18,048 nt of DNA. It comes from an uncultured Eubacteriales bacterium (lineage in GTDB: Bacteria > Bacillota > Clostridia > Oscillospirales > CAG-272). The DNA is taken from NCBI GenBank assembly GCA_949878535.1, contig CATLAS010000002.1:1-18048 (forward strand). Direction: 5' to 3'. A model generated the notes under the pieces. That model was not told the DNA's origin and did no database searches. It worked only from the letters and a program-made list of their open reading frames with translations. The position numbers and the translations under genes were made by a program. Positions 2,798 through 16,980 of the stretch are shown piece after piece (the first letter of the stretch is position 1; each line of letters opens with the position of its first letter).

Positions 2798-3166
2798 TAA
2801 AAAGCTCTCCCAGTAAAGGGAGCTGTCTCGTAACACAAATGAAAAGGCTCCTCCAGCAAAGTGAGGTAGCGCATCGCAGGCTTCATTTCCTTAAAGCCTC
2901 CCCCAGTAAAGGGAGGTGACGCACCGCAGGCTTCATTTCCTTAAAGCCTCCCTTGTGCAAAGGGAGGTGTCACAGCGAAAGCTGTGACGGAGGGATTGTT
3001 TAAGTTATACTGCCGATTTGCAGATTATTTAAAATGATAGTAGAAACAATCTTCCCGACGGCATCGCTGCGCTTGGCCACCCCCCTTTGCACAAGGGGGG
3101 CTTTATATGGTGGTGCCTGGAGTGTTCCCCCTTGCACAAGAGAGCCTTTTTTGTATTTTTACTTTG
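2798..3166. repeat. Block of GC-rich hairpin repeats with one full element (2946-3101)
   Basis: This gene-free stretch has three partial units built on CTCC-CAGTAAAG-GGAG hairpins (near 2802, 2851 and 2897), then one full multi-hairpin element (2946-3101), then another partial hairpin near 3127. The sequence CGCA(C/T)CGCAGGCTTCATTTCCTTAAAGCC occurs twice, at about 2870 and 2920. The full element runs: outer hairpin GCCTCCC/GGGAGG, inner hairpin TCACAGC-gaaa-GCTGTGA, GGAGGGATTGTT, the core, AACAATC, a degraded third hairpin, then CCCCCCTTTGCACAAGGGGGGC. No protein-coding gene is evident. Confidence 0.8.
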
Positions 3167-3217
3167 CTGGGGGCTTTTTCGTTTGTACTTTGCCAGAGGA
3201 GCATTTTTGCTGCATAC

Positions 3218-4072
3218 TTACGCCAGGTTGAGCTTTTTCTTCAGAAAATGATTGCACAGGGCGAATCCGCCGGCAGAAAGTGCCAGATAAAATACAGTTG
3301 AGAAAATCAGTGTGAAATGTACAAGAGATTCCGGTTGATTGTAAATCATACCAGCCATGATGGCATTGCTTCCTACCGAGGCAAATACGATCATATAAAT
3401 CAGTACAGTTATAATAGAAACTGCTGTATTGATCAGATAATAAAATCCAATAGCCGCTAAAATTTTGTGCTTTTTTGCAATGACTGCGCCAATTGTAATT
3501 GCAGTGAAAATCATAAAGGTAGCAAAAACAATGGATACAAGAATTCCCAGAATACTTTCCAAGGCGATAAACCAATAGGATGCGTTCATATACGGGAAAA
3601 GCTCGCTGAAGAATTCGCCGATTTCAGTGAATACTGCCATGTTCAGCAGAGCACCCCGAGGTGCTGATCCTATAAGAATATAAAGAAAGACAAAGAAAAG
3701 TACAGCCACAGTGGTAATAATTACCCACAAAAGTGTAGACCATGTTTTGGAAAACATATGGGTGGAGGTTTTCACTGGCAGCGTATGGGTCAGGTATCCT
3801 TCATCAGAGAAAAAGTGTTTATAAAAACGCACAAATACAATGATTGAAGATATGACAGCAAAGGCAACCAGAATCAGAATGGATCCGAAAATGATCAGCC
3901 CCAGCACACCGCTAAGCAGCGTTGCTGCGAAAGAATTCTGATAGTCGGAGACAGTGCTCATGAGCCGCATTGCTATACTGCCCAGCAGCGTAGTGCCGAG
4001 GGTCAGCAGCATCAGTGGCAGCACAAGCTTGGCGGTATATTTCATATCGTAGCGGAATAATTTCCTTAGCAT
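3218..4072 (-). CDS. ABC-2 type transporter permease (YtrC/D-like)
   Basis: This 284-aa integral membrane protein starts MLRKLFRYDMKYTAKLVLPL, a common opening for ABC-2 permeases, and has about six hydrophobic segments. A short amphipathic stretch near residues 82-110 (RFYKHFFSDEGYLTHTLPVK) is typical of the clostridial YtrC-like family. Its start overlaps the end of the ATPase gene by 7 nt, so translation is probably coupled. With the ATPase and the GntR repressor it forms a three-gene operon of the Ytr type. In Bacillus such transporters respond to cell-wall-active compounds. The substrate here is unknown. Confidence 0.85.
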   Translation of the reverse strand: MLRKLFRYDMKYTAKLVLPLMLLTLGTTLLGSIAMRLMSTVSDYQNSFAATLLSGVLGLIIFGSILILVAFAVISSIIVFVRFYKHFFSDEGYLTHTLPVKTSTHMFSKTWSTLLWVIITTVAVLFFVFLYILIGSAPRGALLNMAVFTEIGEFFSELFPYMNASYWFIALESILGILVSIVFATFMIFTAITIGAVIAKKHKILAAIGFYYLINTAVSIITVLIYMIVFASVGSNAIMAGMIYNQPESLVHFTLIFSTVFYLALSAGGFALCNHFLKKKLNLA

Positions 4073-4770
4073 CTGAATACCTCCCGAAATAGCTCGTCAA
4101 TTCCTTTGCCCAGTTCTTCCCGGACATTGTCTGCGGAGTTATACATTACCAGTGCGCCGTTGTGAATGAACATAAATTCATCCAGCACTTTTTCCACATC
4201 AGCAATCAAATGGGTGGAGATCAGCACGGTGGATTCCTGATTGTAGTTGGACACAATGGTGTTTAATATATAATCCCGTGTGGCGGGATCTACACCGCCG
4301 ATTGGCTCATCCAAAAGATACAATTGTGCTTCTCTGGACATAACCAGCACCAACTGCACTTTTTCTTTGGTTCCTTTGGAGAGCGCTTTCATTTTTTTGG
4401 TTGTAGGAACGCCCAGGTCTTCTAACATTGCCCGTGCCTTGTCTGTGTTGAAATCCTCATAAAAGTCTTCAAAATATTGGATTGTTTCTTCAACCCGCAT
4501 ACCGGGATCAAAGTAAGTACGCTCAGGCAGGTAGGATACAATACGCTTGGTTTCAATGCCTATTGGCATGCCCCCTACAAACAGTTCGCCGGAAGTGGGT
4601 GTGAGCAGTCCGGCAGTCAATTTAATCAATGTTGTTTTGCCGCTGCCGTTGGGACCGAGCAGTCCAATGACTTTCCCTTTGGGCAGTGCAATACTGAAGT
4701 TGTTTAGGGCGAGATCGCCCTGTCCGTAATTTTTGCACAAATTACGGCATTCAAGAATCGGCAGATTCAT
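4066..4770 (-). CDS. ABC transporter ATP-binding protein (YtrB-like)
   Basis: This 234-aa ATPase energises the permease encoded next to it. Walker A is GPNGSGKT (residues 39-46), the signature loop is the variant LSKGTKEKV (about 130-138) instead of LSGGQ, Walker B is LYLLDEP (150-156), and the switch His is in STHL (His187). The LSKG form is common in YtrB/GldA-type exporters. AAGGAGG lies nine to ten bases before the ATG, inside the end of the GntR gene, which overlaps this gene by 20 nt. Expression should therefore follow that of the repressor. Confidence 0.93.
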   Translation of the reverse strand: MNLPILECRNLCKNYGQGDLALNNFSIALPKGKVIGLLGPNGSGKTTLIKLTAGLLTPTSGELFVGGMPIGIETKRIVSYLPERTYFDPGMRVEETIQYFEDFYEDFNTDKARAMLEDLGVPTTKKMKALSKGTKEKVQLVLVMSREAQLYLLDEPIGGVDPATRDYILNTIVSNYNQESTVLISTHLIADVEKVLDEFMFIHNGALVMYNSADNVREELGKGIDELFREVFRC

Positions 4771-5170
4771 CCGATGGTGCCTCCTTTTTCAAAATGTTTA
4801 TGTCTGATGCTTTGTTATAACAGGTTTTGACCAGTCCGGCAGCTTCCTCCGCAGAATACCCCAGTTCCGTCATTTTTCCGGCGAACACCTGCAAAAGCTG
4901 CTGCGCGATGGTGTCTCTTGCCCGGGTGATGACTTCGTTGTCTGCTGTGACAAACCGACCGGCTGTGCCTTGGGTGACTACCAGCCCTTCCTCCTCCAAA
5001 ATTCCAAATGCCCGCTGAATTGTGTTGGGATTGATGGATGCTGTCAGAGCAAATTCCCGCACGGAGGGAAGTTTTTCATTTTTGCTGTACCGTCCGCATA
5101 CAATATCTGAACGGATGCGGTGGGCAGCCTGTAAATATATAGGAATCGTTTGATCGAAAGCCCATGCCAT
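4751..5170 (-). CDS. GntR-family transcriptional regulator, YtrA subfamily
   Basis: This is a 139-aa repressor-type protein. The N-terminal winged helix covers about residues 5-75, with the GntR signature LPSVREFALTASINPNTIQR followed by AFGILEEEGLVVTQGTAGRFV. The short C-terminal part of about 55 residues is helical and lacks a FadR or UTRA effector domain, which marks the YtrA subfamily. The start at 5170 is chosen for GGAG seven bases upstream; an ATG further upstream would place translation inside the operator. It heads an operon with the ATPase (20-nt overlap) and permease, and probably represses its own operon through the inverted repeat at 5187-5214. Confidence 0.9.
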   Translation of the reverse strand: MAWAFDQTIPIYLQAAHRIRSDIVCGRYSKNEKLPSVREFALTASINPNTIQRAFGILEEEGLVVTQGTAGRFVTADNEVITRARDTIAQQLLQVFAGKMTELGYSAEEAAGLVKTCYNKASDINILKKEAPSDESADS

Positions 5171-5186
5171 GATACGGCTCCTTTCA

Positions 5187-5214
5187 TGTATTATTGTACT
5201 AACACAATAATACA
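5187..5214. promoter_or_regulatory. Probable GntR (YtrA-type) operator
   Basis: TGTATTATTGT and ACAATAATACA form a perfect 11-bp inverted repeat around a 6-nt spacer. It covers the -10 box (5207-5212) and the expected transcription start of the GntR operon, where a repressor would block the polymerase. Autoregulation is inferred from position and symmetry. Confidence 0.75.
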
Positions 5215-5235
5215 ACATGTGCGCGTATTTGTCAA
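5207..5235 (-). promoter_or_regulatory. Promoter of the GntR-ABC operon
   Basis: On the minus strand TTGACA (5235-5230), 17 nt, and TATTAT (5212-5207) form a strong sigma-A promoter upstream of the GntR start codon at 5170. The operator overlaps its -10 box. Confidence 0.85.
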
Positions 5236-5277
5236 GAGATTTTTGGGTAAATTTTTGCGGTTTAGAATATGTATTTT

Positions 5278-5305
5278 AAAAGTCTCCCTTGATAGGGAGA
5301 CTTTT
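5278..5305 (-). terminator. Intrinsic terminator after the M23 gene
   Basis: AAAAGTCTCCCT and AGGGAGACTTTT are perfect 12-bp arms around a 4-nt loop. On the minus strand the hairpin ends in TTTT and lies about 55 nt after the M23 stop codon, closing the exported-protein cluster. It is nearly symmetric and might also work from the other strand. Confidence 0.8.
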
Positions 5306-5358
5306 AACGCAGTGTGATTGTTAAAATTGATATGATATATACAAAAATGTATTAAGAC

Positions 5359-6825
5359 TTACTTGCAAGTGCATTCTCCATAGGAATCCAGCCATTCATC
5401 TGCACCACACGCATACACTCTGTATCGCCGATGGGGGTGCGTCTCGCTGGTATAAATCGCAACTTGCTTACATTCCATATATGAATCCAAATATTCTGTA
5501 GCGCCGCACGCGTACACTCTGTATCTGCGGTGCGGATGATCCCCGTCCGGATAGATTGCCACCTGGTTGCACGCTCCGTATGAATCCAGCCACTCTGTAG
5601 CTCCGCATGCGTACACTCTGTATCTGCGGTGCGGGTGATCGTCCCCGGGATAAATCGCAACCTGGTTACATTCACCGAATGAGTCCAGCCATTCTGTAGC
5701 GCCGCATGCATACACTCTGTACCGCCGGTGGGGGTGATCTCCATCAGGATAGATTGCTGCCTGGCTGCATGTTTTGTATTCCCCTGTAAATTTCTCAATA
5801 TGGCACATATTGCACATTCCATATTGCCGGTGGGGATGATCGGTTAAGTAATATGTATATTCATACGTAGCAGCGTTCGTTCCCATGCTCCGCAAATCCC
5901 CGCAGATAGTACACTGCTCGTAATTCACATGGGGGTGGGTGCCTTCATACCATACGTATTCGTAGGTGTGTAGATAGAGGGCTGGGTCAACACGACTAAT
6001 GCCTATATACATTTCAAAATGAAGGTGTGCACCATCTGAATTTCCAGAGGAACCTACTTTCCCAATGATTTGTCCTTGTTCAATAGAATCATCTACATCA
6101 AAACCTGGCGCAGATTGCATGTGTGCATATCGAGTTTTAGTACCGTCATTATGATTTATAAGAATGCAGTGTCCATACGATTGATTTCCACTTGTGCTAC
6201 CATTCCATTTCTGTACCCATTCAACTGTTCCACTTTTTGTAGAATAAATAGCTCTACCACTGTTTCCATATGCTTTTCCATCATTTGCTACATAACGATA
6301 AAAATCAATAGCTTCATGTGATGAACTAAATGGACAACTTACACAGCCATTTTGATTGTCTCCGCCATATTTAGTGCTAAGATCGAAATTTACATTATCT
6401 ACCGGCAGAACCCATTCATTGGATCTGGCATTTGCATTTGCATACAAAGTCATCACATTCTTGGAAGTAGTTAGTAATTTTAATTCAGCAATTGAATATT
6501 CACCGAATAATTCATCACTATGATAAATCCGGATAATCATTCCAACTTGCAATTCGCCTTCAGTTATTTCCTGTCCGTTATATAGAATTTCAACGAAATG
6601 CTGTTCATCAAAAGATTCAACATCCGCGATCACATCTTCTATACGATTTCCCTCATATGCGTTAGTAAGTGTCATCGTTTGGTCATCAAATTCACAAATA
6701 ATCCCATGACGGCAATATTGAAGGGTTTGATTCGTCACCTGTGAATTATTATCTAAAGTTTTGTTGTCATCAAGTAAAACTCGTTCCGTCTCATTTGTTG
6801 CGGATGCGGAGTTAAGTTGCAGCAA
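5359..6825 (-). CDS. Secreted M23 family metalloendopeptidase with C-terminal Cys/His repeats; signal peptide out of frame
   Basis: The in-frame part is 488 aa from a TTG at 6825. Residues 1-120 form an unrecognised acidic N-terminal region. Residues 137-285 are a peptidase_M23 domain with all expected metal and catalytic residues: His170 and Asp174 (HEAID), His235 (YAH), His267 and His269 (HLHFE). It should cut peptidoglycan peptide bridges. Residues 297-488 are six repeats of 33-34 aa. The TTG has no ribosome site and opens in the middle of a hydrophobic stretch. An ATG at 6877 with AGAAAG upstream would give a classic signal peptide if one base were removed from the A4 run at 6865-6868. 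So the gene is either frameshifted or mis-sequenced, or it uses an odd start. It is last in an operon-like series of exported proteins. Confidence 0.85.
   Translation of the reverse strand: MLQLNSASATNETERVLLDDNKTLDNNSQVTNQTLQYCRHGIICEFDDQTMTLTNAYEGNRIEDVIADVESFDEQHFVEILYNGQEITEGELQVGMIIRIYHSDELFGEYSIAELKLLTTSKNVMTLYANANARSNEWVLPVDNVNFDLSTKYGGDNQNGCVSCPFSSSHEAIDFYRYVANDGKAYGNSGRAIYSTKSGTVEWVQKWNGSTSGNQSYGHCILINHNDGTKTRYAHMQSAPGFDVDDSIEQGQIIGKVGSSGNSDGAHLHFEMYIGISRVDPALYLHTYEYVWYEGTHPHVNYEQCTICGDLRSMGTNAATYEYTYYLTDHPHRQYGMCNMCHIEKFTGEYKTCSQAAIYPDGDHPHRRYRVYACGATEWLDSFGECNQVAIYPGDDHPHRRYRVYACGATEWLDSYGACNQVAIYPDGDHPHRRYRVYACGATEYLDSYMECKQVAIYTSETHPHRRYRVYACGADEWLDSYGECTCK
5362..5937 (-). repeat. 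Six 99-102 bp direct repeats encoding HPHxxY...C modules
   Basis: HPH tripeptides occur at residues 297, 330, 364, 397, 430 and 463 of the M23 protein, a period of 33 or 34 aa. The last four units are nearly identical (HPHRRYRVYACGATEWLDSY). The first two are diverged and carry CxxC (YEQCTICG, YGMCNMCH) where later ones keep one Cys. Such Cys/His modules could bind metal or form disulfides, and may attach the enzyme to a surface. The near-identity of the last four copies points to recent duplication. Confidence 0.85.
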
Positions 6826-6902
6826 TAATGATAAAAATACAATGACGCTTAATACTATATATAATTTTACGTTTCATTTCTTTCTACACCGTTCATTGAA
6901 TT

Positions 6903-7643
6903 TTAATTTATCATAGATTTACATATGCTTATTTGCAGAATAGAATCAATTTCCAGTTTATCTGCCTTGCGCACAGATATTTGAACAGAACTATCATTAT
7001 ATTCTCCATAAAGCGAATACGTGTCGAATTCGTAGTAACCAAAAGGGTCCCCTTTTGTTTCCCATGATTTTACATTTGTAACATCGGGGGTTTGCTTTAT
7101 AACACCTTCAAGTTCAGCGAAAGTTTCTGGCATTGCGGATCCACTGAATATTTTCATTATGTTTTCTTCTGATGAAGGTAAGAAATGCTTTGTATCGACA
7201 ACCGCAATGTCTACGCATTGGATATCGTCTTTTGGCAACGGAGCAAATTCGACTATGATATTATTGTTTTCATCTCGAGGGGGAGCACTTTCATCCCATT
7301 CTACATCCTCCCAACTCCAAAAATATTGACCAAATCCATTTTCAAAATTATACCAAACACCTGCCTTGGCTGTGCCAGCCGCTGTGAGTTTCCCGCGTTT
7401 TTCTGCTATTTGCGAATAGGTTAATCCAAGGTCGGAAAATACCTCTGTATTGAGCATCAACTCTGCTTCTTCGAGCTCCGTAGTGTCTTCCTCTGTTGTA
7501 GTAGCATCTTCCGTCGTCTGCACATCTGTTTTTTTTGTGGATTCCTCCGGTGTGCTGCCGGGTTTGTCGTTATCATCTGCACATGCTGCAATAGACACAA
7601 GCATAATACATGCGAGAAGCATGCTGATCAGTTTCGTTTTCAT
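6903..7643 (-). CDS. Lipoprotein, paralogue of the 7943-8650 gene
   Basis: This 246-aa lipoprotein has signal MKTKLISMLLACIMLVSIAAC with the lipobox Cys at 21, then a Thr/Glu-rich linker (about residues 22-65), then a globular part that starts LGLTYSQIAEKRG. That opening resembles a short motif common in clostridial lipoproteins of unknown function. The signal and first part of the linker are almost identical to the gene at 7943-8650, while the rest is clearly diverged, so this is an old duplication with a conserved or converted 5' end. AAAGGA precedes the ATG. It sits 25 nt upstream of the M23 protein's probable ATG. No enzymatic motif is visible; binding or protecting against the M23 enzyme is conceivable but unproven. 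Confidence 0.8.
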   Translation of the reverse strand: MKTKLISMLLACIMLVSIAACADDNDKPGSTPEESTKKTDVQTTEDATTTEEDTTELEEAELMLNTEVFSDLGLTYSQIAEKRGKLTAAGTAKAGVWYNFENGFGQYFWSWEDVEWDESAPPRDENNNIIVEFAPLPKDDIQCVDIAVVDTKHFLPSSEENIMKIFSGSAMPETFAELEGVIKQTPDVTNVKSWETKGDPFGYYEFDTYSLYGEYNDSSVQISVRKADKLEIDSILQISICKSMIN

Positions 7644-7696
7644 TGTGGTATTCCTTTCTTTATGTTTTTAGAAAATATTGTCGGACAACTGTTCAA

Positions 7697-7906
7697 TTAC
7701 GCATTCCCCATACAACAAATCGTTAAGGAGTGCGCACAGAAGCTCTGCAATTGCGCATTTTCAGCTGTTTCAGCCTGCGATATTTCATGATGTTCAACAG
7801 GGGAGAAATGATTGTTATCTGCTGCTGAAAATCCAATGAGAGATACAAATAAAACAGCTATCAGCAACACACAAATCAATCGTTTTGGAACCCGTGTGTA
7901 TTTCAT
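7697..7906 (-). CDS. Small secreted peptide, unknown function
   Basis: This 69-aa product has a basic start (MKYTRVPKR), a hydrophobic core (LICVLLIAVLFVSLIGF) and a likely cleavage after Ala29 or nearby, leaving a mature peptide of about 40 aa. The end is Cys-rich (SFCAHSLTICCMGNA, three Cys). AAAGGAAAA precedes the ATG. It lies 36 nt after one lipoprotein gene and 53 nt before its paralogue, in the same direction. It may be a secreted peptide in its own right or the remnant of a longer gene. No family is recognised. Confidence 0.6.
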   Translation of the reverse strand: MKYTRVPKRLICVLLIAVLFVSLIGFSAADNNHFSPVEHHEISQAETAENAQLQSFCAHSLTICCMGNA

Positions 7907-7942
7907 TTGGTTTTCCTTTCTTTTTTACAATGTATATAAAAT

Positions 7943-8650
7943 TCATTCATGCACAGATGAGTGATATACATCTATTTTTGCATCTGAATCAATCTTTTCC
8001 TTATCATTGTGCTCAATAATAAATCTAAAATCATTATATGAAAAACCAGAACAATAGTTTAAATATAACCCTTCCTGTGCATAAATGCAATCTTTTACTC
8101 CCTCTATTTTTTCTATATCAGTAATATCAAAAGGAAAAGAAGTATTGCAGAAAACGTCTTTTGCATCAATCCAGGAAATGCTTAGGCAAGGAATATCCTG
8201 CTTCGGAAGCTGTACTTTTTCCGCAATAAGGCGCCCATTTTCATCTTTAGGAATAGGATATCCGTCTTCTCGTGTAAGTTCTCTGCCATAATCAAGGTCA
8301 CCGATATCCCAGGCATAACTGCCGCTATATCCGTTTTTAAAATAAAAGCCAATACCACCGCCTGACACTCGGACAGCATCAACCTTCTCCCCCCGCTTTT
8401 CTACAAGTTCGGAGTAAGTCAACCCGATATCAGAAAGCAAATCTTCGTTAAACGCCAGTTCGGCTGTGGGTTCCGTTGTATTTTCCTCTGTAGTATCTTC
8501 TTCGGTGGTATCGTTTTCCGTAGTCTGCACATCAGTTTCTTTTGTGGATTCCTCCGGTGTGCTGCCGGGTTTGTCGGTATCATTTGCACATGCTGCAAGA
8601 GACATAAGCATAATGCATGCGAGAAGCATGCTGATCAGTTTCGTTTTCAT
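7943..8650 (-). CDS. Lipoprotein, first gene of the exported-protein cluster
   Basis: This 235-aa lipoprotein has signal MKTKLISMLLACIMLMSLAAC, a Thr/Glu linker (about 22-64), and a globular part opening LLSDIGLTYSELVEKRG. It is the paralogue of the 6903-7643 protein; they share the signal, the KPGSTPEESTK linker start and the GLTYS..EKRG motif, but little after that. AAAGGAG lies eight bases from the ATG. A strong promoter (8847-8875), a mini-ORF and a terminator precede it, so its expression may depend on readthrough. Function is unknown. Confidence 0.8.
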   Translation of the reverse strand: MKTKLISMLLACIMLMSLAACANDTDKPGSTPEESTKETDVQTTENDTTEEDTTEENTTEPTAELAFNEDLLSDIGLTYSELVEKRGEKVDAVRVSGGGIGFYFKNGYSGSYAWDIGDLDYGRELTREDGYPIPKDENGRLIAEKVQLPKQDIPCLSISWIDAKDVFCNTSFPFDITDIEKIEGVKDCIYAQEGLYLNYCSGFSYNDFRFIIEHNDKEKIDSDAKIDVYHSSVHE

Positions 8651-8713
8651 TGTATTTTCTCCTTTACATATATAGAGTGGTTAATGTAATATTATGTTTA
8701 ATTTTGTCGAATG

Positions 8714-8749
8714 AAAAAAGCCCGCAAAACATAAACTGCTTTTGCAGAC
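8714..8749 (-). terminator. Intrinsic terminator between the leader promoter and the lipoprotein gene
   Basis: On the minus strand GTCTGCAAAA pairs with TTTTGCGGGC (10 bp including two G-U pairs) around a 10-nt loop, followed by TTTTTT. It lies right after the mini-ORF stop and about 65 nt before the lipoprotein ATG, a position that fits an attenuator. It could also simply end a short independent transcript. Confidence 0.75.
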
Positions 8750-8750
8750 T

Positions 8751-8798: not shown

Positions 8799-8846
8799 AG
8801 TCATATCCTTTCGTTGATATTATGTACTACATCTCCTTCTATTTTC

Positions 8847-8875
8847 AGTATACAGAATGGCAGCTTATTTGTCAA
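8847..8875 (-). promoter_or_regulatory. Promoter of the exported-protein cluster
   Basis: On the minus strand TTGACA (8875-8870), 17 nt, and TATACT (8852-8847) make a strong sigma-A promoter. Transcription would start near 8840, giving a leader of about 190 nt before the first lipoprotein gene. Confidence 0.85.
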
Positions 8876-10994: not shown

Positions 10995-11437
10995 TAGGAG
11001 TATTCAGAAATAAAAAATCCCTTGTAAGGCTTCCTTGTGCTGGAGTCGCGTAGCAAATCCTATGGAGCTCCCGCGTAGTAAAAAACAAAAAGGCTCCCTT
11101 GTGTAAAGGGAGCTCCCGCTTTAGCGGGTGAGGGATTGTCTTGCTGTCATTTTAGATAATCTTTAAATTAGCGATACATATAGACAACCCCTCCGTCACG
11201 GCTACGCCGTGCCACCTCCCCTTGCACAGGGGAGGCTGTAAAATGATGGAGGCTGCGCGAAACCTACCTCCCTTTACCGGGGGGAAGCTTGAGTGATAGG
11301 AAACAATCTCCCCGACACGCCTACAGAGCGCCACTCCTTTACACAAGTAAGGCTAAAAAATAGTGAGGGCTGCGGCGCGCCACCTCCTTGGGAGTCTTGA
11401 TCCCCTCACACAGGAAGCTAATAAAGCTTAACGGAAA
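10995..11437. repeat. Gene-free stretch of hairpin repeats with one full element (11092-11237)
   Basis: The full element runs in the opposite sense to those at 2946, 13707, 16514 and 16825: its core reads forward only on the minus strand. Its inner hairpins are CCCGC-ttta-GCGGG (11114-11127) and CACGGC-tac-GCCGTG (11197-11211). Degraded fragments flank it on both sides (near 11020, 11265-11355 and 11380-11415), including GGAAACAATCTCCCCGAC, which matches the right half of an element. No coding gene is supported here. Confidence 0.8.
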
Positions 11438-11458
11438 TTGCAAAGCGTCTGCATCAAC

Positions 11459-12052
11459 ATGAAAGGAAAATTTGTTTTGAAAAAACCTGTACTAAAAATT
11501 CAATATGACTCGCCTGTCATCCTAACCTTTGCCCTGTTAGGCCTCCTTGCATTGCTTATGAACGGATGGACGGACGGTTGGTCAAATATACATCTTTTCA
11601 GCGTATACCGCGCACCTCTGACAGATCCCCTTACTTATGTCCGCATGTTCGGGCACGTCCTCGGACATACAGACTGGTCGCATTTTTTTGGTAACATATG
11701 CCTGATTCTGGTGCTGGGTCCAGTTGTGGAAAGTCGATATGGAAGCTGGAATCTTTTTTTCTCCATACTGATCACAGCACTGGTTTCCGGAATCGTCTAT
11801 TTTGTATTTTTCCCCGGAAATGCGCTGCTGGGCGCGTCTGGCATTGTATTTATGTTGATTTTTCTTTCCTCCATATCGGGAATCCGGGGAGGAAATATTC
11901 CCGTGTCCCTGATCCTGGTCGCGCTGATCTATCTGGGACGAGAAATTTACTCCATGATTTTTGTCGCCGACAATATATCTCAGCTAACGCATATTATCGG
12001 TGGGCTCTGCGGAATCATTTGCGGTGCCGCCATGGCGCGGGGCAAACGGTAG
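11459..12052 (+). CDS. Rhomboid family intramembrane serine protease
   Basis: This 197-aa protein (from ATG 11459) has about six membrane segments. Catalytic motifs are present: Ser127 in GASG, His178 in THIIGG, and the HxxxN pair His75/Asn79 in SHFFGN after GHVLGH. It would cut substrates within the membrane. The start is uncertain: ATG 11459 has no clear ribosome site. AAAGGA lies at 11462-11467, nine bases before an in-frame TTG at 11477. A TTG at 11438 is also open. It stands alone between repeat blocks, so no operon partner suggests a substrate. Confidence 0.88.
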   Translation: MKGKFVLKKPVLKIQYDSPVILTFALLGLLALLMNGWTDGWSNIHLFSVYRAPLTDPLTYVRMFGHVLGHTDWSHFFGNICLILVLGPVVESRYGSWNLFFSILITALVSGIVYFVFFPGNALLGASGIVFMLIFLSSISGIRGGNIPVSLILVALIYLGREIYSMIFVADNISQLTHIIGGLCGIICGAAMARGKR

Positions 12053-12317
12053 AAAAAGCAGAACACAAAAAGGCTTCTTTTATAATTAAACTCCCTTGTG
12101 CTGGAGGTCACTTCCCGGGGCATGCCGTGCAGCTCTAATCTTTTAAAAGGCCCTCTTGCGCAAAGGGGGGCAATGTCGCGGAGCGACTGGGGGATTGTAT
12201 ATTCCGTCATTTTACAAAATCTATAAATCGTCAGTATAACTAATTGACAGTCCCTCCGACACGATCGCTACACTTGACCGTACCAACTCCCATTGCTGGA
12301 GAATCCTTTTTTCTGGT
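12053..12317. repeat. Hairpin-repeat element, minus-sense (full copy about 12149-12304)
   Basis: Element layout: outer hairpin GGCCCTCTTGCGCAAAGGGGGGC, inner hairpin GTCGCGGAGCGAC, GGGGGATTGT, core (forward on the minus strand as TTATACTGACGATTT...AAAATGACGG), GACAGTCCC, then a right side with many mismatches. A damaged fragment lies at 12070-12135. This is the most decayed of the six full copies. No gene is seen. Confidence 0.7.
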
Positions 12318-13010
12318 TTACCCGCTGGTTTTCTCTGCAGTATAGGGGAATGCGTGAAGCACCCCATCGCTTACTGCTCCATAGAAAACTTCTTTTGGTG
12401 AACCAATGTTCATGGCGTGCAACTGCTTATCCAGCCATTTTGCATCCAGTCCTTCCTCCCGCAGACGGTTCCAGTCTACAATTCCATCCATAATCACCGC
12501 AGTGTCTAAAGTTGCCTTTTCTACCGCAATTCCCATATCCTGGGGTGTTGCGGGTCGATTTTCTGATTTAGGCAAAATACTTAACTTTCCGTTCGCTTCC
12601 AATATCACGCACTCCACCTGCGACAAATCAAAATATCCGCCGCTTCTGCAATGCATCACAAATTCATCCACATCCAACCGGGCCTTTTTAAAGCTTTTTT
12701 TAATCAGTTTTCCGTTCCGTAAAAGAATTAGCGGTCGCCCGTTGATTATACCGGCAGCTTTTCTCGATTTGTTGGTAATCCATGCAAGCAGGATGCTGAT
12801 TCCGCCGTACACAATCATAGCAATCAGCGGGTCCAATATTTCATGAGGCATAGCGGTAGCAAGTTCGGCTCCGATAGAGCCGATTGTGATTCCGTTCACA
12901 TAGTCAAACAAACTCATTTGCGACATTTGCCGGCATCCAATGCACTTTGTAATAATAAACATAGCAACTATAGATAATATCGCTGCCAATACGGTCTGAA
13001 GATATGCCAT
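12318..13010 (-). CDS. DUF421 (YetF/YrbG-type) membrane protein
   Basis: This 230-aa protein has two to three membrane segments in the first 80 residues, including the family-typical KCIGCRQMSQMSLFDYVNGI and GSIGAELA. The cytoplasmic part opens RPLILLRNGKLIKKSFKKAR and contains SQVECVILEANGKLSILPKS, both usual for DUF421. GGAGG is seven bases from the ATG. Its function is unknown; some YetF-type proteins are linked to spores. It is divergent from nrdR, and an NrdR-box-like site lies 34 nt upstream of its start codon, so NrdR may control it. Confidence 0.88.
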   Translation of the reverse strand: MAYLQTVLAAILSIVAMFIITKCIGCRQMSQMSLFDYVNGITIGSIGAELATAMPHEILDPLIAMIVYGGISILLAWITNKSRKAAGIINGRPLILLRNGKLIKKSFKKARLDVDEFVMHCRSGGYFDLSQVECVILEANGKLSILPKSENRPATPQDMGIAVEKATLDTAVIMDGIVDWNRLREEGLDAKWLDKQLHAMNIGSPKEVFYGAVSDGVLHAFPYTAEKTSG

Positions 13011-13043
13011 TTTTATTCCTCCAAGCTCTTCTTTTCAGAAATC

Positions 13044-13059
13044 ACACTATACATAGTGT
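13044..13059. promoter_or_regulatory. NrdR box 1
   Basis: ACACTATACATAGTGT matches the published NrdR-box consensus acaCwAtATaTwGtgt at all positions but one. It lies between the DUF421 and nrdR starts, closer to DUF421 and near where that gene's promoter would be expected. Confidence 0.75.
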
Positions 13060-13078
13060 TGCCCTCCGCCTTAAAATT

Positions 13079-13094
13079 CATCCATATATTGTGT
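13079..13094. promoter_or_regulatory. NrdR box 2 (weaker)
   Basis: CATCCATATATTGTGT matches the consensus at 12 of 16 positions, with the ATATAT centre and right half intact. Its centre is 35 bp from that of box 1; NrdR boxes usually come in pairs about three helical turns apart, so the spacing is slightly long. It lies 18 bp upstream of the nrdR -35 box. Confidence 0.55.
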
Positions 13095-13112
13095 TTTTTT
13101 ATAAATAGGCAC

Positions 13113-13141
13113 TTGCAAAAATTATTTTATTCCTGTATAAT
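13113..13141 (+). promoter_or_regulatory. Promoter of nrdR
   Basis: TTGCAA (13113-13118), 17 nt, TATAAT (13136-13141). Start of transcription should be near 13148, leaving a leader of about 90 nt. Both NrdR-like boxes lie upstream of the -35. Confidence 0.8.
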
Positions 13142-13237
13142 AAACGTATAAGATTTCCAGATATACCCAATTAAAATTTCTGCCGTTAAATCGGTTCAAC
13201 AAACTGAAAATTTTTTGATGTAGAAATGGAGATTCCT

Positions 13238-13687
13238 ATGAAATGTCCGTCCTGTGGATCTATGGACTTGAAGGTAGTGGATTCCCGCCCAGTGGAAGAA
13301 AACAATTCTATCCGGCGGCGTCGGGAATGCCTCCAGTGTCACGGAAGATTTACCACATATGAGATTATCGACGCTTTCCAGCCTGTAGTTGTAAAAAAAG
13401 ACGGCTCAAAAGAATTGTTCGATAAGAACAAGCTTTTATCTGGACTTTTGAAAGCCTGTCAGAAACGTCCTGTCAACGCGGAAACCGTGGCAAACGAGAT
13501 CGAAATAGAAATTCAGAATTCCCTGCGCAGAGAGATAACTTCTTCTGAAATCGGAGACATCGCTATGGAAAAGCTGCGCGCATTGGACGCAGTAGCCTAT
13601 GTGCGTTTTGCATCCGTTCACCGGGAATTTAAAGATGTAGAAACCTTTATGAAAGAACTGCAGACACTAAAAGGTGAAAAGCAGTAA
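13238..13687 (+). CDS. nrdR: Transcriptional repressor NrdR
   Basis: At 149 aa this is standard length. The N-terminal zinc ribbon has Cys3/Cys6 (MKCPSCG) and Cys31/Cys34 (CLQCHGRF). An ATP-cone domain fills residues about 46-136, with VVVKKDGSKELFDKNKL and the typical AYVRFASVHREFKD near the end. NrdR senses ATP/dATP and represses ribonucleotide reductase genes. The start is 13238 rather than the ATG at 13226, because GGAG (13228-13231) overlaps the earlier ATG and is six bases from this one. No nrd genes are in the window. Likely targets here are the two boxes upstream. Confidence 0.97.
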   Translation: MKCPSCGSMDLKVVDSRPVEENNSIRRRRECLQCHGRFTTYEIIDAFQPVVVKKDGSKELFDKNKLLSGLLKACQKRPVNAETVANEIEIEIQNSLRREITSSEIGDIAMEKLRALDAVAYVRFASVHREFKDVETFMKELQTLKGEKQ

Positions 13688-13706
13688 CAAGAATTCGAAT
13701 AACAAA

Positions 13707-13851
13707 GCTCCCAGTAAAGGGAACTGTCAGCCAAGCGCAGCGATTGAGACGGAGAGATTGTCTGTTATACTGCTGATTTAATAGTCCTGCAAAATGATAG
13801 TGTTACAATCCCCCACCCGCTGCGCGGGAGCCCCCTTTACACAAGGGGGCC
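13707..13851. repeat. Hairpin-repeat element, plus-sense
   Basis: This full copy, directly after nrdR, has a left hairpin AGCTCCCAGTAAAGGGAACT, core TTATACTGCTGATTT...AAAATGATAG, ACAATCCCCC, inner hairpin CCCGC-tgc-GCGGG (13816-13828), and a right hairpin that doubles as a terminator. Its second hairpin (GTCAGCCAAGCGCAGCGATTGAGAC) is partly decayed. Confidence 0.8.
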
Positions 13852-13856
13852 TTTTT
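13829..13856 (+). terminator. Terminator of nrdR formed by the right hairpin of the repeat
   Basis: GCCCCC-TTTACACAA-GGGGGC is followed by CTTTTT. It is the first intrinsic terminator after nrdR, about 140 nt past the stop codon. Confidence 0.7.
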
Positions 13857-13977
13857 ATGTTTATTTACACGGGATATTCCCAGGTTCGAAAACGAACCAT
13901 GCACAAGGGGAACTCTTTATGTTTATTTACGCGGGATACCCCCGGATTCGAAAACAAACCATGCACAAGGGGGCTAT
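13854..13977 (+). repeat. Two tandem 62-bp direct repeats
   Basis: TTTATGTTTATTTAC begins at 13854 and again at 13916, and each unit ends in CCATGCACAAGGGG. The units differ at about ten positions. Each holds a TTCGAAAAC(G/A)AA hairpin-like centre and ends in the right-end motif GCACAAGGGG of the repeat family, so this may be a tandem expansion of an element's end. Confidence 0.75.
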
Positions 13978-14042
13978 GTTTGTACTACGCCGTGCCAACT
14001 TTCTTTGCTAGGAGATTTTGAAGCATTTGTCTAAAAACTGTA

Positions 14043-14073
14043 CGGGGCATCGCCCGAAACGGACGATGCCCCG
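14043..14073 (-). terminator. Strong hairpin terminator after the SpoIIQ-like gene
   Basis: CGGGGCATCG and CGATGCCCCG are perfect 10-bp arms with a further CCG/CGG pairing inside. It begins seven bases after the stop codon of the minus-strand gene. T-runs flank both sides (TTTTT after it on the minus strand, TTTTTT on the plus strand), so it may work in both directions. Confidence 0.75.
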
Positions 14074-14079
14074 CATTTT

Positions 14080-14835
14080 TTACTGATCTTCAAACTGTGC
14101 ATTTCCGCCAGAAAAATCAATATAATCCGCCGGATTTACAGATACACCGTTTACCTGCAATTCAAAATGCAAATGTGATTCCTGCGCAATCTCCGCCAGC
14201 GCACTTTCGCCGGCAGCCGCAATAATGTCCCCTGCTTTTACACTGGTCCCCGCAGTGATTCCTGCCGGCAGTTCCTCAGAAAGATTGGAATATGTGCTCA
14301 CGCCTCCGCCGGCATGCGTAATAGACAAGCATTTTCCCATCATAGGATCATCCCATACCTCGCCGATCACTCCATCTGCAGCCGCACAGATTTTATCGCC
14401 TGCACCCACACTAATATCCACACCCTTATGGGTACGGTAATCATTCATTGTAGGAGAAAATACCGGCACATCCATGCTGTAATTCTGCATAACCACACCG
14501 CCTGTGGGATTGATAAACTGAGGCAGCACCTCCTCTGGTTCACCGTTTACATCCAGTGTAGTGTCCGCCTCCGGCTTTTTGGTTTCACCATCTTTTTCCG
14601 CAAATTCGTCAGACCGATCTGCATCCTTTTTTGTTTCGGATGAAGCATCTGCAGTTGTATCTGCCCTTTCAGTCACCTGCACTTTATGCACTGGTTTGGT
14701 AGTTTCAGCCGTATCTGTATTTACGTTGCGCACCACGGCTCCTGCAATAGCTACCACCACGGCAATCATCATCAAAATGACAAGCAGTGTTACATACAAA
14801 TTTGCTTTGCGATTTTCCTTGCTGTTATTATTCAT
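14080..14835 (-). CDS. Membrane-anchored M23 domain protein, SpoIIQ-like
   Basis: This 251-aa protein has one N-terminal membrane anchor (residues about 12-35), an acidic and Thr-rich linker (40-100), and an M23 domain (about 115-240). Conserved pieces are THKGVDI (His136, Asp140) and HLHFEL (His221, His223). The usual YAHL is YSNL, so the third-motif His is replaced by Asn184. The opening FSPTMNDYRTHKGVD and GEVWDDPMMGKCLSITHAGG are typical of SpoIIQ in Clostridia, which joins SpoIIIAH across the forespore membranes. A SpoIIQ role is inferred, since no other sporulation gene is in the window; a non-sporulation cell-wall protein is the alternative. AAAGGA is about nine bases from the ATG. Confidence 0.85.
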   Translation of the reverse strand: MNNNSKENRKANLYVTLLVILMMIAVVVAIAGAVVRNVNTDTAETTKPVHKVQVTERADTTADASSETKKDADRSDEFAEKDGETKKPEADTTLDVNGEPEEVLPQFINPTGGVVMQNYSMDVPVFSPTMNDYRTHKGVDISVGAGDKICAAADGVIGEVWDDPMMGKCLSITHAGGGVSTYSNLSEELPAGITAGTSVKAGDIIAAAGESALAEIAQESHLHFELQVNGVSVNPADYIDFSGGNAQFEDQ

Positions 14836-14941
14836 TTTCCTGCATCCTTTCGGTTATAGGTTTCGATGGTATTTTAGCCACTTACAAGGTTTTTATACAG
14901 GATCTTCTTCTTTTTCACATTTCCTTCATATTTATCTTTGG

Positions 14942-14970
14942 TTGACACAAAACCGCCTTTATGTTAAAAT
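14942..14970 (+). promoter_or_regulatory. Promoter of the CDF transporter transcript
   Basis: TTGACA (14942-14947), 17 nt, and TAAAAT (14965-14970) form a strong plus-strand promoter. The next confident gene is the CDF transporter at 15294, so the leader would be about 315 nt. Apart from the interrupted small frame at 15068-15271 and a 7-bp GCAGCGC/GCGCTGC hairpin (15229-15264), no known riboswitch is recognised in it. The rest of 14836-15293 holds no supported gene. Confidence 0.75.
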
Positions 14971-15067
14971 ATTGGAACTATACCCTTTACTGCAGAAAAG
15001 CCTGGAAAAGAATTTAATCAAATTGGAAAAATAGCGTAACGAAATTGGATAACACCATCCACAGTCC

Positions 15068-15271
15068 ATGCAAAAAATCACGCTGATCCTTTTTCTCGGT
15101 CTGCTTTTCGCTGTAACTGTTACAACGAACTACGAAAATCTGATCAGTATGTATTATGCCCGCTGAAATCACAAACTGGACCAATGGCACATATTTTGTA
15201 ATTGGATCGAAACACTTCCATATGCACAGCAGCGCATTCTTGTAAAGAAAGAAGCTGGCGCTGCAAAATAG
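15068..15271 (+). pseudogene. Small frame interrupted by UGA in the CDF leader
   Basis: From ATG 15068 a 32-codon frame encodes a hydrophobic segment (MQKITLILFLGLLFAVTV), ending at TGA (15164-15166). The same frame then stays open for 34 more codons (DQWHIFCNWIETLPYAQQ ... KKEAGAAK) to TAG at 15269. That stop is 22 nt before the CDF start, as expected for a gene in the same operon. There is no clear ribosome site at 15068. It may be a gene broken by a nonsense change, or two chance frames. No family is recognised. Confidence 0.3.
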
Positions 15272-15293
15272 ACCTGTTCCGGAGAAAGGACAA

Positions 15294-16469
15294 ATGCGCA
15301 TGAATCAAGACGCATCAAAAGCCCGCCTCGGCGCTGGGCGCAAAGCCGGTATTGTGGGAATCGTCTGCAATATTCTGCTGTTTATTATAAAAATCACCAC
15401 GGGAATCCTCACCGGCAGTATGTCCATTGTGGCAGATGCAATTAACAATCTGTCCGACGCCGGCAGTTCTGTTTTTGTTCTGGTGGGATATGTCCTATCA
15501 GCGCGCCCCGCAGACAAGGAGCATCCTTATGGCCATGCCCGCGCAGAGTATTTATGCGGATTGTTCATCTCCATTATCGTGTGCATCCTTGGAATTGAAC
15601 TGCTGCGCAGTTCCGCCGAACAATTATTTACAGGTGGAAGCGGCGCTGCATTCAGCCCCATTTCTATTGCAGTCATGAGCGCCACTGTAGCTGTGAAAGG
15701 CGGAATGGCACTATATTATCATATAATAGCCCGACAGATTGGCTCGCAGGCACTGCGTGCGTCTGCTGTGGACAGCATCGGTGATATGTGCGCTACAGGC
15801 GCAGTAGTTGCTGCCATGTTCCTGTCTAAAATCACCGGACCGCTGACAGATGCTGTGCTTGGCTGCATCATTTCCATATATATTCTGGTTTTGGGGATCA
15901 AGCTTACCAAAGAAGCGTCAGGCACCCTTATGGGAACTGCTCCTGACAAAGAATTCACAGCACAGATCATCCGCCGGATTCGGGAATATGACGGCGTTTT
16001 GGGAATACATGATCTAGTAATCCACAGTTACGGCGCAAACCGATACTTTGTATCTGTACATGTAGAAGTGGATGCAGAAGAGGATGTCATGGAGTCCCAC
16101 GATTTAATTGACAATATTGAAGAGGCCTTTCGTCGAGAAGAAGGGATTCATATGGTAATCCACATGGACCCGATTCAATATAAAGATGCACATGTCAATG
16201 AAATTCGCGCACGTGTTGCTGGAATCATCGAACAGATTTCATCGGAATACTCCTCTCCCATATCCATGCATGATTTTCGTGTTGTGTCGGGAATCACTCA
16301 TTCCAATCTGATTTTTGACGTGGCAGTAACAGATGATTTTCCCGTTAAAGATGAAGTATTATGTTCTGAACTGCAGGGAGAAATTAAGAAAATAGATTCT
16401 GCTTATAATGCGGTTATTACTGTAGACAGAGAGTACTCCTCCAATCGGTTCGGCAGCAAAATGGATTGA
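15294..16469 (+). CDS. Cation diffusion facilitator (CDF) metal exporter, Mn/Fe-like site
   Basis: This 391-aa protein has six membrane segments in residues about 15-200. The TM2 site reads Asn51-x3-Asp55 (in ADAINNLSD), and the TM5 site Asp160-x3-Asp164 (VDSIGD). Zinc CDFs normally have HxxxD at one of these; N/DxxxD with DxxxD is associated with Mn or Fe members, so export of Mn2+ or Fe2+ is favoured. HPYGHARAEY follows TM2. A cytoplasmic metal-binding domain (about 215-290) has HDLVIHSYGANRYFVSVHVE and HMVIHMDP, followed by an extra domain of about 90 aa seen in many clostridial homologues. GGAG lies nine bases before ATG 15294; ATG 15300 is an alternative start. Confidence 0.92.
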   Translation: MRMNQDASKARLGAGRKAGIVGIVCNILLFIIKITTGILTGSMSIVADAINNLSDAGSSVFVLVGYVLSARPADKEHPYGHARAEYLCGLFISIIVCILGIELLRSSAEQLFTGGSGAAFSPISIAVMSATVAVKGGMALYYHIIARQIGSQALRASAVDSIGDMCATGAVVAAMFLSKITGPLTDAVLGCIISIYILVLGIKLTKEASGTLMGTAPDKEFTAQIIRRIREYDGVLGIHDLVIHSYGANRYFVSVHVEVDAEEDVMESHDLIDNIEEAFRREEGIHMVIHMDPIQYKDAHVNEIRARVAGIIEQISSEYSSPISMHDFRVVSGITHSNLIFDVAVTDDFPVKDEVLCSELQGEIKKIDSAYNAVITVDREYSSNRFGSKMD

Positions 16470-16513
16470 CATAAATTTCTGCTGGACTCCCAAAGCGGGT
16501 TGGCAGCTTTCAA

Positions 16514-16668
16514 GCCTCTCACAGCAAAGGAAGGTGGCACGATCAAGCGTGGCGATCGCGTCAGAGGGATTGTTGTATACAGCCGATTTAAAAATCATCC
16601 CAAATGATAACATATACAATCCCTCAGTCTCCGCTGCGCGGAGACAGCCCCCTTTACACAAGGGGGCC
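16514..16668. repeat. Hairpin-repeat element, plus-sense
   Basis: This full copy lies 44 nt after the CDF stop. It has core TATACAGCCGATTT...AAATGATAAC, flanking GAGGGATTGT and ACAATCCCTC, and a third hairpin GTCTCCGC-tgc-GCGGAGAC (16627-16645). Its right hairpin GCCCCC-TTTACACAA-GGGGGC with CTTTTT is a likely terminator for the CDF transcript. A decayed fragment follows at about 16681-16735. Confidence 0.8.
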
Positions 16669-16824
16669 TTTTTATATTTGTGCCCGCGACAGCTCCTGCG
16701 GAGTCGCGTGGCGGATCCTCACAAGGGAGCTTTTTGTTCGTGGAAAACCGTTTTGTAAAAATTTTTTCATTTTTAGTAACATCTATACTCTCAAAGCAAA
16801 CCGCTAAAATATGCATTCACCCAA

Positions 16825-16980
16825 GCCTCCCCCCCCCCAGTAAAGGGAGGTGGGTTTTGCACAGCAAAACTCGAAGGGATTGTCCGCACGCACTGCCGAG
16901 TTTTAAATTATCCAAAATGATCGCATTACAATCCCCCAGTCACAGCTTTGCTGTGACAGCCCCCTTTGCACAAGGGGGCC
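16825..16980. repeat. Hairpin-repeat element, plus-sense, with a C10 tract
   Basis: Inner hairpins are GTTTTGC-aca-GCAAAAC (16854-16870) and GTCACAGC-ttt-GCTGTGAC (16939-16957). The core is CACTGCCGAGTTTTAAATTATCC then AAAATGAT, between GGGATTGT and ACAATCCC. A run of ten C (16829-16838) sits in the first hairpin. The right hairpin GCCCCC-TTTGCACAA-GGGGGC with CTTTT can act as a terminator. Confidence 0.8.

Follow-up and report, generated by a model that had tools for sequence, protein, structure and literature searches.

Repeats with mirror-covarying hairpin ends in a Clostridia genome, probable passengers of a DUF559 nuclease element

The window, an 18,048-nucleotide stretch of DNA from an uncultured Eubacteriales bacterium (contig CATLAS010000002.1, positions 1 to 18,048), contains six copies, E1 to E6, of a short intergenic repeat. 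These repeats are probably non-autonomous passengers, similar to miniature inverted-repeat transposable elements (MITEs), of a mobile element carrying a DUF559 gene, which itself appears to be of an undescribed kind. Each end would be a structure of single-stranded DNA: a class II intrastrand purine-motif triplex, made of a pyrimidine arm (Y), a purine arm (R) and a third strand (R'), in which the turn from R to R' is a hairpin. Autonomous members would have one gene, coding for a DUF559 nuclease of about 122 amino acids (aa) with a Vsr-like fold, placed exactly between the ends.

The repeat family

The host genome (G000) is a 1.2-Mb draft in 241 contigs, 67% complete; among relatives with a genus name, 'Candidatus Avispirillum faecium' (Clostridia) is the nearest to it, with 84% amino-acid identity in the CDF gene. 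A sequence-only model, built from E1-E6, gives at least 150 scored matches in this draft, nine of which are the same place on the opposite strand. A scan of 58 genomes, its own included, with at most 48 candidates scored per genome, found matches in 25 of them, very unevenly spread within the genus: the counts for G002, G003 and G009 are lower bounds, at least equal to the scored maximum; G004 has 50 matches, G006 41, G005 28, G011 14, G007 and G014 two each, and none is present among the scored candidates of G001, G008, G010, G012, G013, G015 and G016. For the original prediction, made from the window alone, six copies had been seen, and it proposed to collect the others: they are far more numerous, amounting to hundreds across the draft genome and its congeners.

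Elements were collected by a hidden Markov model from 1.33 Mb of stretches of the four element-rich genomes (G000, G002, G003, G009). Of the 322 non-overlapping matches, 253 have both arms and are indicated as full elements; a short non-coding unit with inverted ends, present in so many copies, has the features of a MITE. From the outside inwards, each half is composed of an outer hairpin (Y8-loop-R8), an inner hairpin, GGAGGGATTGT (CC-type) or TGAGGGATTGT (GC-type), and the core. Gaps between convergent genes are over-represented among element sites: convergent, tandem and divergent neighbours are found in the ratio 64:100:32 for elements (57 of the 253 were not classed), versus 131:610:131 for all adjacent pairs.

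Mirror covariation of the third strand

R' mirrors, and does not complement, the purine arm of the outer hairpin, and the two change together base by base, through the triplets C-G*G, T-A*A and G-C*T (Y-R*R'). The rule was evaluated on the 374 of 506 halves which feature a GTG[CT]A outer loop, with R' fixed by position as the 7 nt before TTGT and one substitution allowed in the arms. It is kept over all 7 nt in 306 of the 374 halves: on the left side in 161 of 198, versus a mean of 53 (maximum 71) in within-side shuffles, and on the right in 145 of 176, versus a mean of 80 (maximum 96). Mutual information between Y and R' is concentrated on the parallel diagonal, with 0.66, 0.48, 0.21 and 0.19 bits at positions 1, 3, 6 and 7; off the diagonal it never exceeds 0.06 bits pooled, or 0.08 by side. 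Position 1 is mainly occupied by C-G*G (171) and G-C*T (165); position 3 by T-A*A (224) and C-G*G (105), against 35 C-G*A; position 6 by C-G*G (345) and T-A*A (19), against 8 T-G*G; position 7 by T-A*A (350) and C-G*G (15), against 7 C-G*A.

Within an element, left and right ends are almost unlinked (at most 0.072 bits for R' and 0.022 for Y, in 136 elements): subfamily linkage is therefore a poor explanation of the rule. Outside the element-rich genomes, 123 of 149 TTGT modules match at 7 of 7 positions (a few places being counted double), and a third position-1 triplet, T-A*A, is seen. Modules of other genomes fall into 30 distinct types, 14 of them perfect, versus a mean of 2.2 and a maximum of 7 in shuffles; in this search, as in those of facing ends, DUF559 loci and other phyla, R' was picked as the best mirror match, either before TTGT or in the span.

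The R-R' turn is a hairpin, mostly of 14-35 nt. Mirror polarity cannot arise from Watson-Crick pairing; a purine-motif third strand is able to produce it, with the inner hairpin at the strand turn. A hairpin in this place would explain why only the fold of the inner hairpin matters.

Other arrangements were considered and rejected. Pairing of R' antiparallel with Y, or across the core, finds no support in the off-diagonal and left-right mutual information. As for a G-quadruplex, the GC-type ends have no suitable G runs, and the positional code would probably stay unexplained.

Variable inner hairpins

The original prediction held that the inner stems vary in sequence yet stay paired, and would have to be abandoned if stem changes were no more compensatory than expected. 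That outcome was not observed: genome-wide, the pairing is kept far above both shuffled and swapped-arm controls. A best inner hairpin score of at least 5 is reached by 197 of 253 left halves (13 when shuffled, 36 with arms swapped and re-optimised) and by 212 of 253 right halves (15 and 47, respectively). The Watson-Crick share of the innermost five pairs is 0.93 on the left and 0.96 on the right, versus 0.42 and 0.54 with arms swapped (246 of 253 halves on each side); the hairpin behind these shares, and behind the loop counts given below, was picked by best pairing, and the re-optimised swap control was run separately. The first 161 elements already contain 94 inner-hairpin forms on the left and 89 on the right. 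A perfect innermost 5-bp stem is present in 386 halves, which feature 38 kinds of stem, 26 of them linked by single compensated steps. Loops of three nt, read from the outer end to the core, are GNA in 130 and TNC in 2 of 177 left halves, GNA in 102 and TNC in 1 of 187 right ones; GNA-type loops make unusually stable DNA minihairpins. The description of a stem ending in GC beside a loop of 3-4 nt fits the stems from which it was drawn, and fails for the left hairpins of E3, E4 and E5, which are long; nor is it a trait of the family, as stems such as GCCGAT/ATCGGC and CTCACC/GGTGAG are found.

Pairing alone is not a sufficient sign of selection, the inner stems being exchanged in blocks, and the mirror rule is the stronger sign. 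Among 57 half comparisons between copies with near-identical cores (edit distance up to 4), the stem is identical in 19, changed by at least two fully compensated pairs in 25, and affected by broken or wobble pairs in 13: in none of the 38 differing comparisons is exactly one compensated pair changed. Since such copies differ by two or more compensated pairs and never by one, the exchange of halves between copies contributes to the variation. At core distances up to 6, exactly one compensated pair differs in 16 of 218 comparisons.

Mismatches among distinct inner stems, on the strand read from the outer end to the core, are G-T in 22 and A-C in 8 cases for the left half, an excess on the top strand; for the right half, where the same reading follows the bottom strand, they are 13 versus 8. 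As the G-T excess lies on the top strand at the left half only, one RNA read from the top strand does not account for the two halves together.

The six window elements

The six elements, of 157-171 bp each, are all found where the original prediction placed them, between likely genes of the window; orientation was assigned from the core, and limits are those delimited in this analysis. The predicted arms, GGGATTGT/ACAATCCC, are found to carry 0-2 substitutions, the variants being ACAATCTT (E1 right), GGGGTTGT (E2 left), GGGACTGT (E3 left) and GAGATTGT (E4 left).

E1 (2940-3108, + strand) is a full element with a CC-type left end, a decayed CC-type right end and the core TTTAAGTTATACTGCCGATTTG..AAAATGATAGTAGAA. 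Its left candidate triplex-hairpin module (2947-2995, +) is formed by Y CCTCCCTT, loop GTGCA, R AAGGGAGG, the inner hairpin TGTCACAGC-GAAA-GCTGTGAC and R' GGAGGGA, with a mirror match of 7/7; the decayed right module (3053-3100, -) scores 5/7. E2 (11086-11242, -), also full, features two modules. In the left one (11188-11235, -; Y CCTCCCCT, R AGGGGAGG, inner hairpin TGGCACGGC-GTA-GCCGTGAC), R' is GGAGGGG and mirrors 7/7, C-G*G replacing T-A*A as the position-7 triplet; in the right one (11093-11135, +), of GC type (Y GCTCCCTT, R AAGGGAGC, inner hairpin CCCGC-TTTA-GCGGG), R' TGAGGGA mirrors 7/7 with G-C*T.

E3 (12143-12313, -) is full but decayed: the left outer hairpin is degenerate, and the right outer stem keeps 6/8 pairs, with a mirror match of 6/7. 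E4 (13698-13858, +) and E5 (16508-16675, +) are full elements with a decayed left half; the right module of E4 (13809-13850, -) has Y GCCCCCTT, R AAGGGGGC, inner hairpin CCCGC-GCA-GCGGG and R' TGGGGGA (7/7), and that of E5 is GCCCCCTT/AAGGGGGC/TGAGGGA (6/7). E6 (16822-16988, +), a full element whose left outer hairpin has another loop type, features on the right (16932-16979, -) Y GCCCCCTT, R AAGGGGGC, inner hairpin GTCACAGC-AAA-GCTGTGAC and R' TGGGGGA (7/7). In all, the outer hairpin is decayed, or of another loop type, in 5 of the 12 window halves. Folding of five of these 12 halves, the more typical ones, as single-stranded DNA gives z values from -3.4 to -6.7, more than chance would produce.

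Mobility of the repeats

Empty sites in relatives had been proposed as a check of mobility: orthologous sites are indeed empty, or differently filled. In the relative L033, the sites of E2, E4 and E5/E6 have 26, 95 and 41 bp between alignable blocks, where the window has 491, 438 and 654; in another relative, L034, the site of E4 is likewise empty (28 bp). G000 is 90.5% identical to G003 over 48 kb, and 84% identical to G009. In a survey of 89 comparisons, 16 of which were viewed in detail, many orthologous gaps have no insert on one side, or contain different or oppositely oriented copies amid older fragments.

Target duplications, for which a search had likewise been suggested, were not detected: the flanks of 173 elements show no excess of direct repeats 4-12 nt long (offsets 0-8). 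Insertion into palindromes was discarded, flanking inverted repeats being in no excess in 131 elements of the rich genomes and 45 others. Partial matches and facing ends, viewed by eye in the rich genomes as possible split autonomous elements, have just small open reading frames (ORFs) or ordinary genes between them. Element ends were also observed around other small genes: one for a 78-aa helix-turn-helix (HTH) protein (L261, 311-905), and a 60-aa ORF with no Pfam match (L155, 6280-6799).

DUF559 genes between the same ends

In genome G029, the same two ends surround a 122-aa ORF, which starts directly after GGAGGGATTGTA and stops inside the other end: it belongs to Pfam DUF559 (E 1.1e-29). 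In a survey of this family, the gene was found in 43 of 147 genomes of the order, 22 of 32 chosen relatives and 53 of 199 genomes of the phylum, mostly as remote or large proteins in the latter. The module finder was run at the edges of 74 recognised DUF559 ORFs: 24 of them have modules at both ends, 11 at a single end and 39 at neither. All the 35 ORFs with a module are "close" ones (105-162 aa or shorter, E <= 1e-41), a set of 50 which includes L275, identical to L234, and the orthologues L271/L307; allowing for these, the 24 both-ended ORFs become 22. Among 105 control ORFs of the same loci, none has modules at both ends and 11 have one.

DUF559 genes between two inverted modules, with fixed outer edges in several pairs, are thus found in other genera; the window copies are gene-less. 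The ends of the window copies are nearly identical to those of DUF559 elements from other genera. In 10 of 11 both-ended elements with GTG[CT]A loops, the exception being L313, the coding direction is from the CC end towards the GC end. The mirror rule is obeyed by the end types CCTCCCT>GGAGGGA, GCTCCCT>TGAGGGA, GCTCCCC>TGAGGGG and GCTCTCC>TGAGAGG; CCTTCCC/CCTTCTC>GGATGAG is a poorer fit, with T at position 4 and, for CCTTCCC, a mismatch at position 6. Similarity between loci (77-85%) stops a few nt from the module edges in the pairs L291/L322, L281/L322, L281/L292 and L310/L320: L291/L322 (85%) and L281/L292 (84%) are alike between the outer module edges and unrelated outside. Four protein clusters (P0005, P0011, P0012, P0013) have hundreds of members, the longest contig being of only 512-1124 nt, as may be expected of a collapsed repeat. 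A common flanking repeat with two further hairpins (CTTGTCA..TGACAAG and GCATTTGTG..CACAAATGC), perhaps a preferred target, was observed at L272, L291, L292 and L279.

The original prediction suggested a search for a transposase with the same ends: a gene between the same two ends does exist in other genera, for a DUF559 nuclease, and none was found in the host genome. The DNA part of its second reading (a trans-mobilised hairpin DNA substrate) is supported by dispersed copies, empty sites and a gene-bearing relative. No DUF559 element with window-type ends was found in the host genome or its genus, whose flanked DUF559 genes (L277, L284) have GGATGAG-type ends; for this reason, action in trans on the window copies is something we can only infer.

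As for the protein, residues E24, Q42, D51, E62, D64, H68, D77, R80, R93 and N96, among others, are invariant in 24 sequences, which suggests an active nuclease. Sequence search retrieves 3hrl (E 4.7e-21) and 3r3p, a protein of a mobile intron (E 0.003). Foldseek, run on an AF2 model, indicates as closest folds 3hrl and, again, 3r3p, the homing endonuclease I-Bth0305I, which we take to belong to the Vsr-like (EDxHD) homing endonuclease family. Comparison with defence-system families gives just weak partial matches, and with NCBIfam one family, far under its cut-off.

DUF559 genes in other phyla

In Deinococcus and some cyanobacteria, too, DUF559 genes are enclosed by inverted motifs with the triplex pattern. 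Six stretches of 33-50 kb, each around a DUF559 gene from another phylum, contain 12 motifs, nine of them no more than 250 bp away from the gene (two of these nine overlap on opposite strands). Deinococcus proteolyticus and D. psychrotolerans have inverted motifs at both gene ends, and none elsewhere in 49.5 and 49.9 kb; D. aetherius has three near motifs, two of them overlapping on opposite strands, and Synechocystis one. In E. coli K-12, the protein ycjD belongs to DUF559 (41% identity with P0021); about 170 bp downstream of its gene, the motif CCCTCGCCCC-TCT-GGGGAGAGGG-TTA-GGGTGAGGGG is found only when one stem mismatch is allowed. This motif is BoxC-like, and probably BoxC itself, by the description in PMC4666352.

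Plasmid DUF559 loci were represented by 14 of 43 records, hand-picked for taxonomic spread or for a similarity match. A relaxed finder locates motifs on both sides at L363, L366, L368 and L365 (the latter with TCCCCCA-type arms), and on one side at L359, L361, L362, L364, L367 and L371, as well as at the phage contig L370, upstream only; it finds none in L360, where repeats are visible by eye, or in P. aeruginosa L369. Relatives free of the insert are Deinococcus sp. QL22, at paaD-paaZ, and D. radiodurans, at hpaB/oxidoreductase, and D. wulumuqiensis retains a broken copy, by alignments that are not base-exact. Homology of the ends across phyla is uncertain.

Further observations concern the same loci. 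The Deinococcus DUF559 elements L372, L373, L378 and L379 have an extra outer inverted repeat or hairpin, variable among species, outside the putative triplex; several of them are inserted in hpa or paa gene clusters, at junctions that differ. On the cyanobacterial plasmids L360 and L361, the DUF559 gene adjoins a gene annotated as DUF1156, which in L361 ends just before it.

Comparison with known systems

Class II triplexes are defined by a Y-R-R' succession in which R' mirrors R, the arrangement found here in 306 of 374 halves. According to PMC4666352 (Holder et al. 2015), such intrastrand triplexes occur in many genomes, are stable in vitro and are tied to local instability, and the purine motif cannot form in RNA. 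The BoxC/PIT/TM repeats described there resemble the window family: they have Y-R-R' on one strand, with the third strand antiparallel to R, are G/C-rich and occur in many copies at strain-variable loci; earlier work on PIT elements, as cited there, found no promoter or terminator activity. The search made in that work accepted only turns of 1-6 nt, AAT/GGC/TAT triplets and one mismatch in longer stems. The window family differs from them by a sequence-free hairpin turn, beyond that short-turn limit, by covarying triplets that include G-C*T, and by modules in inverted pairs, which in the related elements enclose a nuclease gene. The main text of that paper contains no words starting with "covaria" or "compensatory", and the parts covered name no mobilising gene. 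No published link of such triplex motifs to DUF559 was found, in a search thin on subscription journals and preprints; literature mentioning DUF559, judged by titles and abstract openings, includes none on mobile elements.

Classical bacterial MITEs are likewise of 100-200 bp and intergenic, and share inverted ends with a larger gene-bearing element, as the window family may do; here, in contrast, no target duplication is detected, no known transposase is involved, and ends are kept as a fold rather than as duplex sequence. With Vsr-like (EDxHD) homing endonucleases, such as I-Bth0305I (3r3p), DUF559 has in common the fold and the pattern of acidic and His residues; its elements, however, are at unrelated sites with fixed ends, and seem transposon-like rather than devoted to homing at one allele.

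Proposed mechanism and points against it

An end, once single-stranded on the lagging strand or by cruciform extrusion, would fold into a hairpin plus triplex. The DUF559 protein would recognise the folded shape and cut, and the unit would move, or be copied, leaving no target duplication that can be detected. Whatever DNA lies between two good ends could ride along, so that gene-less copies with a short core would multiply in intergenic gaps, with a preference for convergent-gene gaps, in which the outer hairpins are similar to bidirectional terminators. The inner hairpin would need only to fold, so that its sequence would drift and pass between copies.

Several points weigh against the proposal that the repeats are passengers of a DUF559/triplex element. 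The weakest link is the host genome itself, as no DUF559 gene was found in it (67% complete), nor in G002 or G009 (64-67% complete); G003 does have one, but without modules directly adjoining it on both sides, and the GGATGAG-type ends of the genus have been mentioned. The mirror rule is violated by 68 of the 374 halves, 35 of which have C-G*A at position 3; of the 506 halves, 132 fall outside the test. No module was recognised at 15 of the 50 close DUF559 ORFs, nor at any of the 24 remote or large ones. Pairs among L234, L272, L291 and L292 share flank past one module edge, 118 family genomes yielded no base-exact empty site for L281, a Clostridial DUF559 element, and an excised intermediate was not seen. 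The AF2 model is of moderate quality (pLDDT 72), with Foldseek E-values of just about 1e-3. In other phyla, modules mostly face the opposite way, with R' distal and an R-R' turn usually of 1-5 nt; Deinococcus sp. NW-56 has one motif near the gene and three far from it, and the E. coli stretch has none at strict thresholds. Finally, for a related triplex in E. coli, PMC4666352 reports that no footprint was observed in vivo.

Alternative explanations

The best surviving alternative, which we still consider unlikely, is that the repeats are MITEs of another, unseen transposase, of DDE, serine or tyrosine type, which reads the ends as duplex; DUF559 would then be either a frequent passenger or a free-standing homing nuclease gene that favours terminators. 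The failure to find a DUF559 gene in three of the four element-rich genomes fits with it, as do the nearest folds (a homing endonuclease and an endonuclease-like protein that is uncharacterised) and the different small gene (HTH, L261) of another element. Yet no such transposase was recognised by eye in the 11 facing end pairs read, of 20 lying 260-8000 nt apart (three ORFs being searched against Pfam), DUF559 elements with diverged ends recur across genera, and a duplex-reading enzyme leaves the mirror covariation unexplained.

A family of structured RNAs or bidirectional terminators, its fold selected at each site and spread by recombination between copies, is improbable. Outer hairpins with T runs do score as terminators on both strands, the window featuring 32 terminator-like sites versus a mean of 19 in shuffles; the excess between convergent ORFs and the G-T excess of the left half point in the same direction. 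However, the right half shows no matching top-strand excess, the insert is missing or different in neighbouring species, and the mirror linkage has no counterpart in RNA, given that, in PMC4666352, the purine-motif triplex is said not to form there. No Rfam family reaches its gathering score in the window: below cut-off, a T-box and four weak matches are obtained, one of the four, anti-hemB (E 0.57), overlapping E4 at 13813-13866. The structured-RNA branch of the original prediction accordingly finds no support, the covariation fitting a DNA triplex.

Slightly less probable again is that pairing is kept by mutation alone, a template switch (quasipalindrome correction) copying one arm onto the other and half exchange spreading the results. 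Such a process is suggested by the instability of the intergenic regions and by the near-identical cores, whose stems differ by at least two compensated pairs in 25 of 57 comparisons and by exactly one in none. It cannot, though, make mirror repeats of the same polarity, so that the covariation of R and R' stays unexplained, and the single compensated steps which join 26 of the 38 distinct stems into one network, or separate 16 of 218 pairs at core distance up to 6, speak against it.

A REP/REPIN-like element, mobilised by a RAYT (Y1) transposase, is very improbable: REPINs are also short palindromic passengers with inverted hairpins and structure-based ends, in hundreds of intergenic copies thought to be moved by a chromosomal enzyme reading hairpin shape (PMC3116915, PMC2817692 and PMC8266576), and have a GTAG/CGTC tag at the palindrome foot (PMC3733652), but here the ends are triplex-patterned, with a Vsr-like nuclease gene between them in the related elements, and Y1_Tnp (PF01797) was found in none of the four element-rich genomes, of which three are 64-67% complete; over the whole genus, it is present in 4 of 17 members, two without repeat matches (G010, G015) and two with 28 (G005) and 14 (G011).

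Other features of the window

Older outer-hairpin fragments, of repeat families D4 and D13, lie beside E1 (2800-2942), and element fragments, by direct reading, to the right of E2 (11266-11420). Two tandem 62-nt terminator-like units of family D11 are found right of E4 (13840-13963), their loop bearing a further hairpin, GGTTCG-AAAA-CGAACC, and a solo terminator-like outer hairpin is at 17021-17052; no strand is assigned to these four features. Tandem single units of this kind, present also in L148 (right of 17732), look as if one element end can multiply alone. At L031 (4735-5450), L032 (455-805) and 13859-13963 of the window, the outer-hairpin loop is replaced by a longer arm bearing a further variable hairpin (GGATCCGC-TAC-GCGGCTCC, GGGATTCG-AAAA-CGAATCCC), a second place where sequence changes and pairing is kept.

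A T-box leader at 2448-2690 (-) scores 82 bits, under the gathering score of 93; between it and the gene of an ABC-transporter binding protein (912-1955) lies an antisense ORF region on the + strand (1944-2357). A peptidase-like ORF (5359-6825, -) includes five repeats (5370-5841), spaced by 99-102 nt, encoding a unit of about 33 aa (..HPHRRYRVYACGATEWLDSYG..).

Conclusions

A wider view is possible, and we hold it more tentatively than the passenger relationship: a superfamily of minimal transposons, each with a Vsr-like nuclease of about 120 aa (DUF559) between triplex-plus-hairpin ends, might span Clostridia, Deinococcota, Cyanobacteriota and Pseudomonadota. The BoxC/PIT/TM repeats, orphans for a long time, might derive from it, with E. 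coli ycjD, which has a BoxC-like motif nearby, as a relic, and the base-triplet covariation might be a natural record of a DNA triple helix. If true, one more nuclease fold would be added to those thought to move DNA, DUF559, in Pfam only a "protein of unknown function", would gain a testable job, and evolutionary covariation would be evidence of natural selection on a DNA triple helix.

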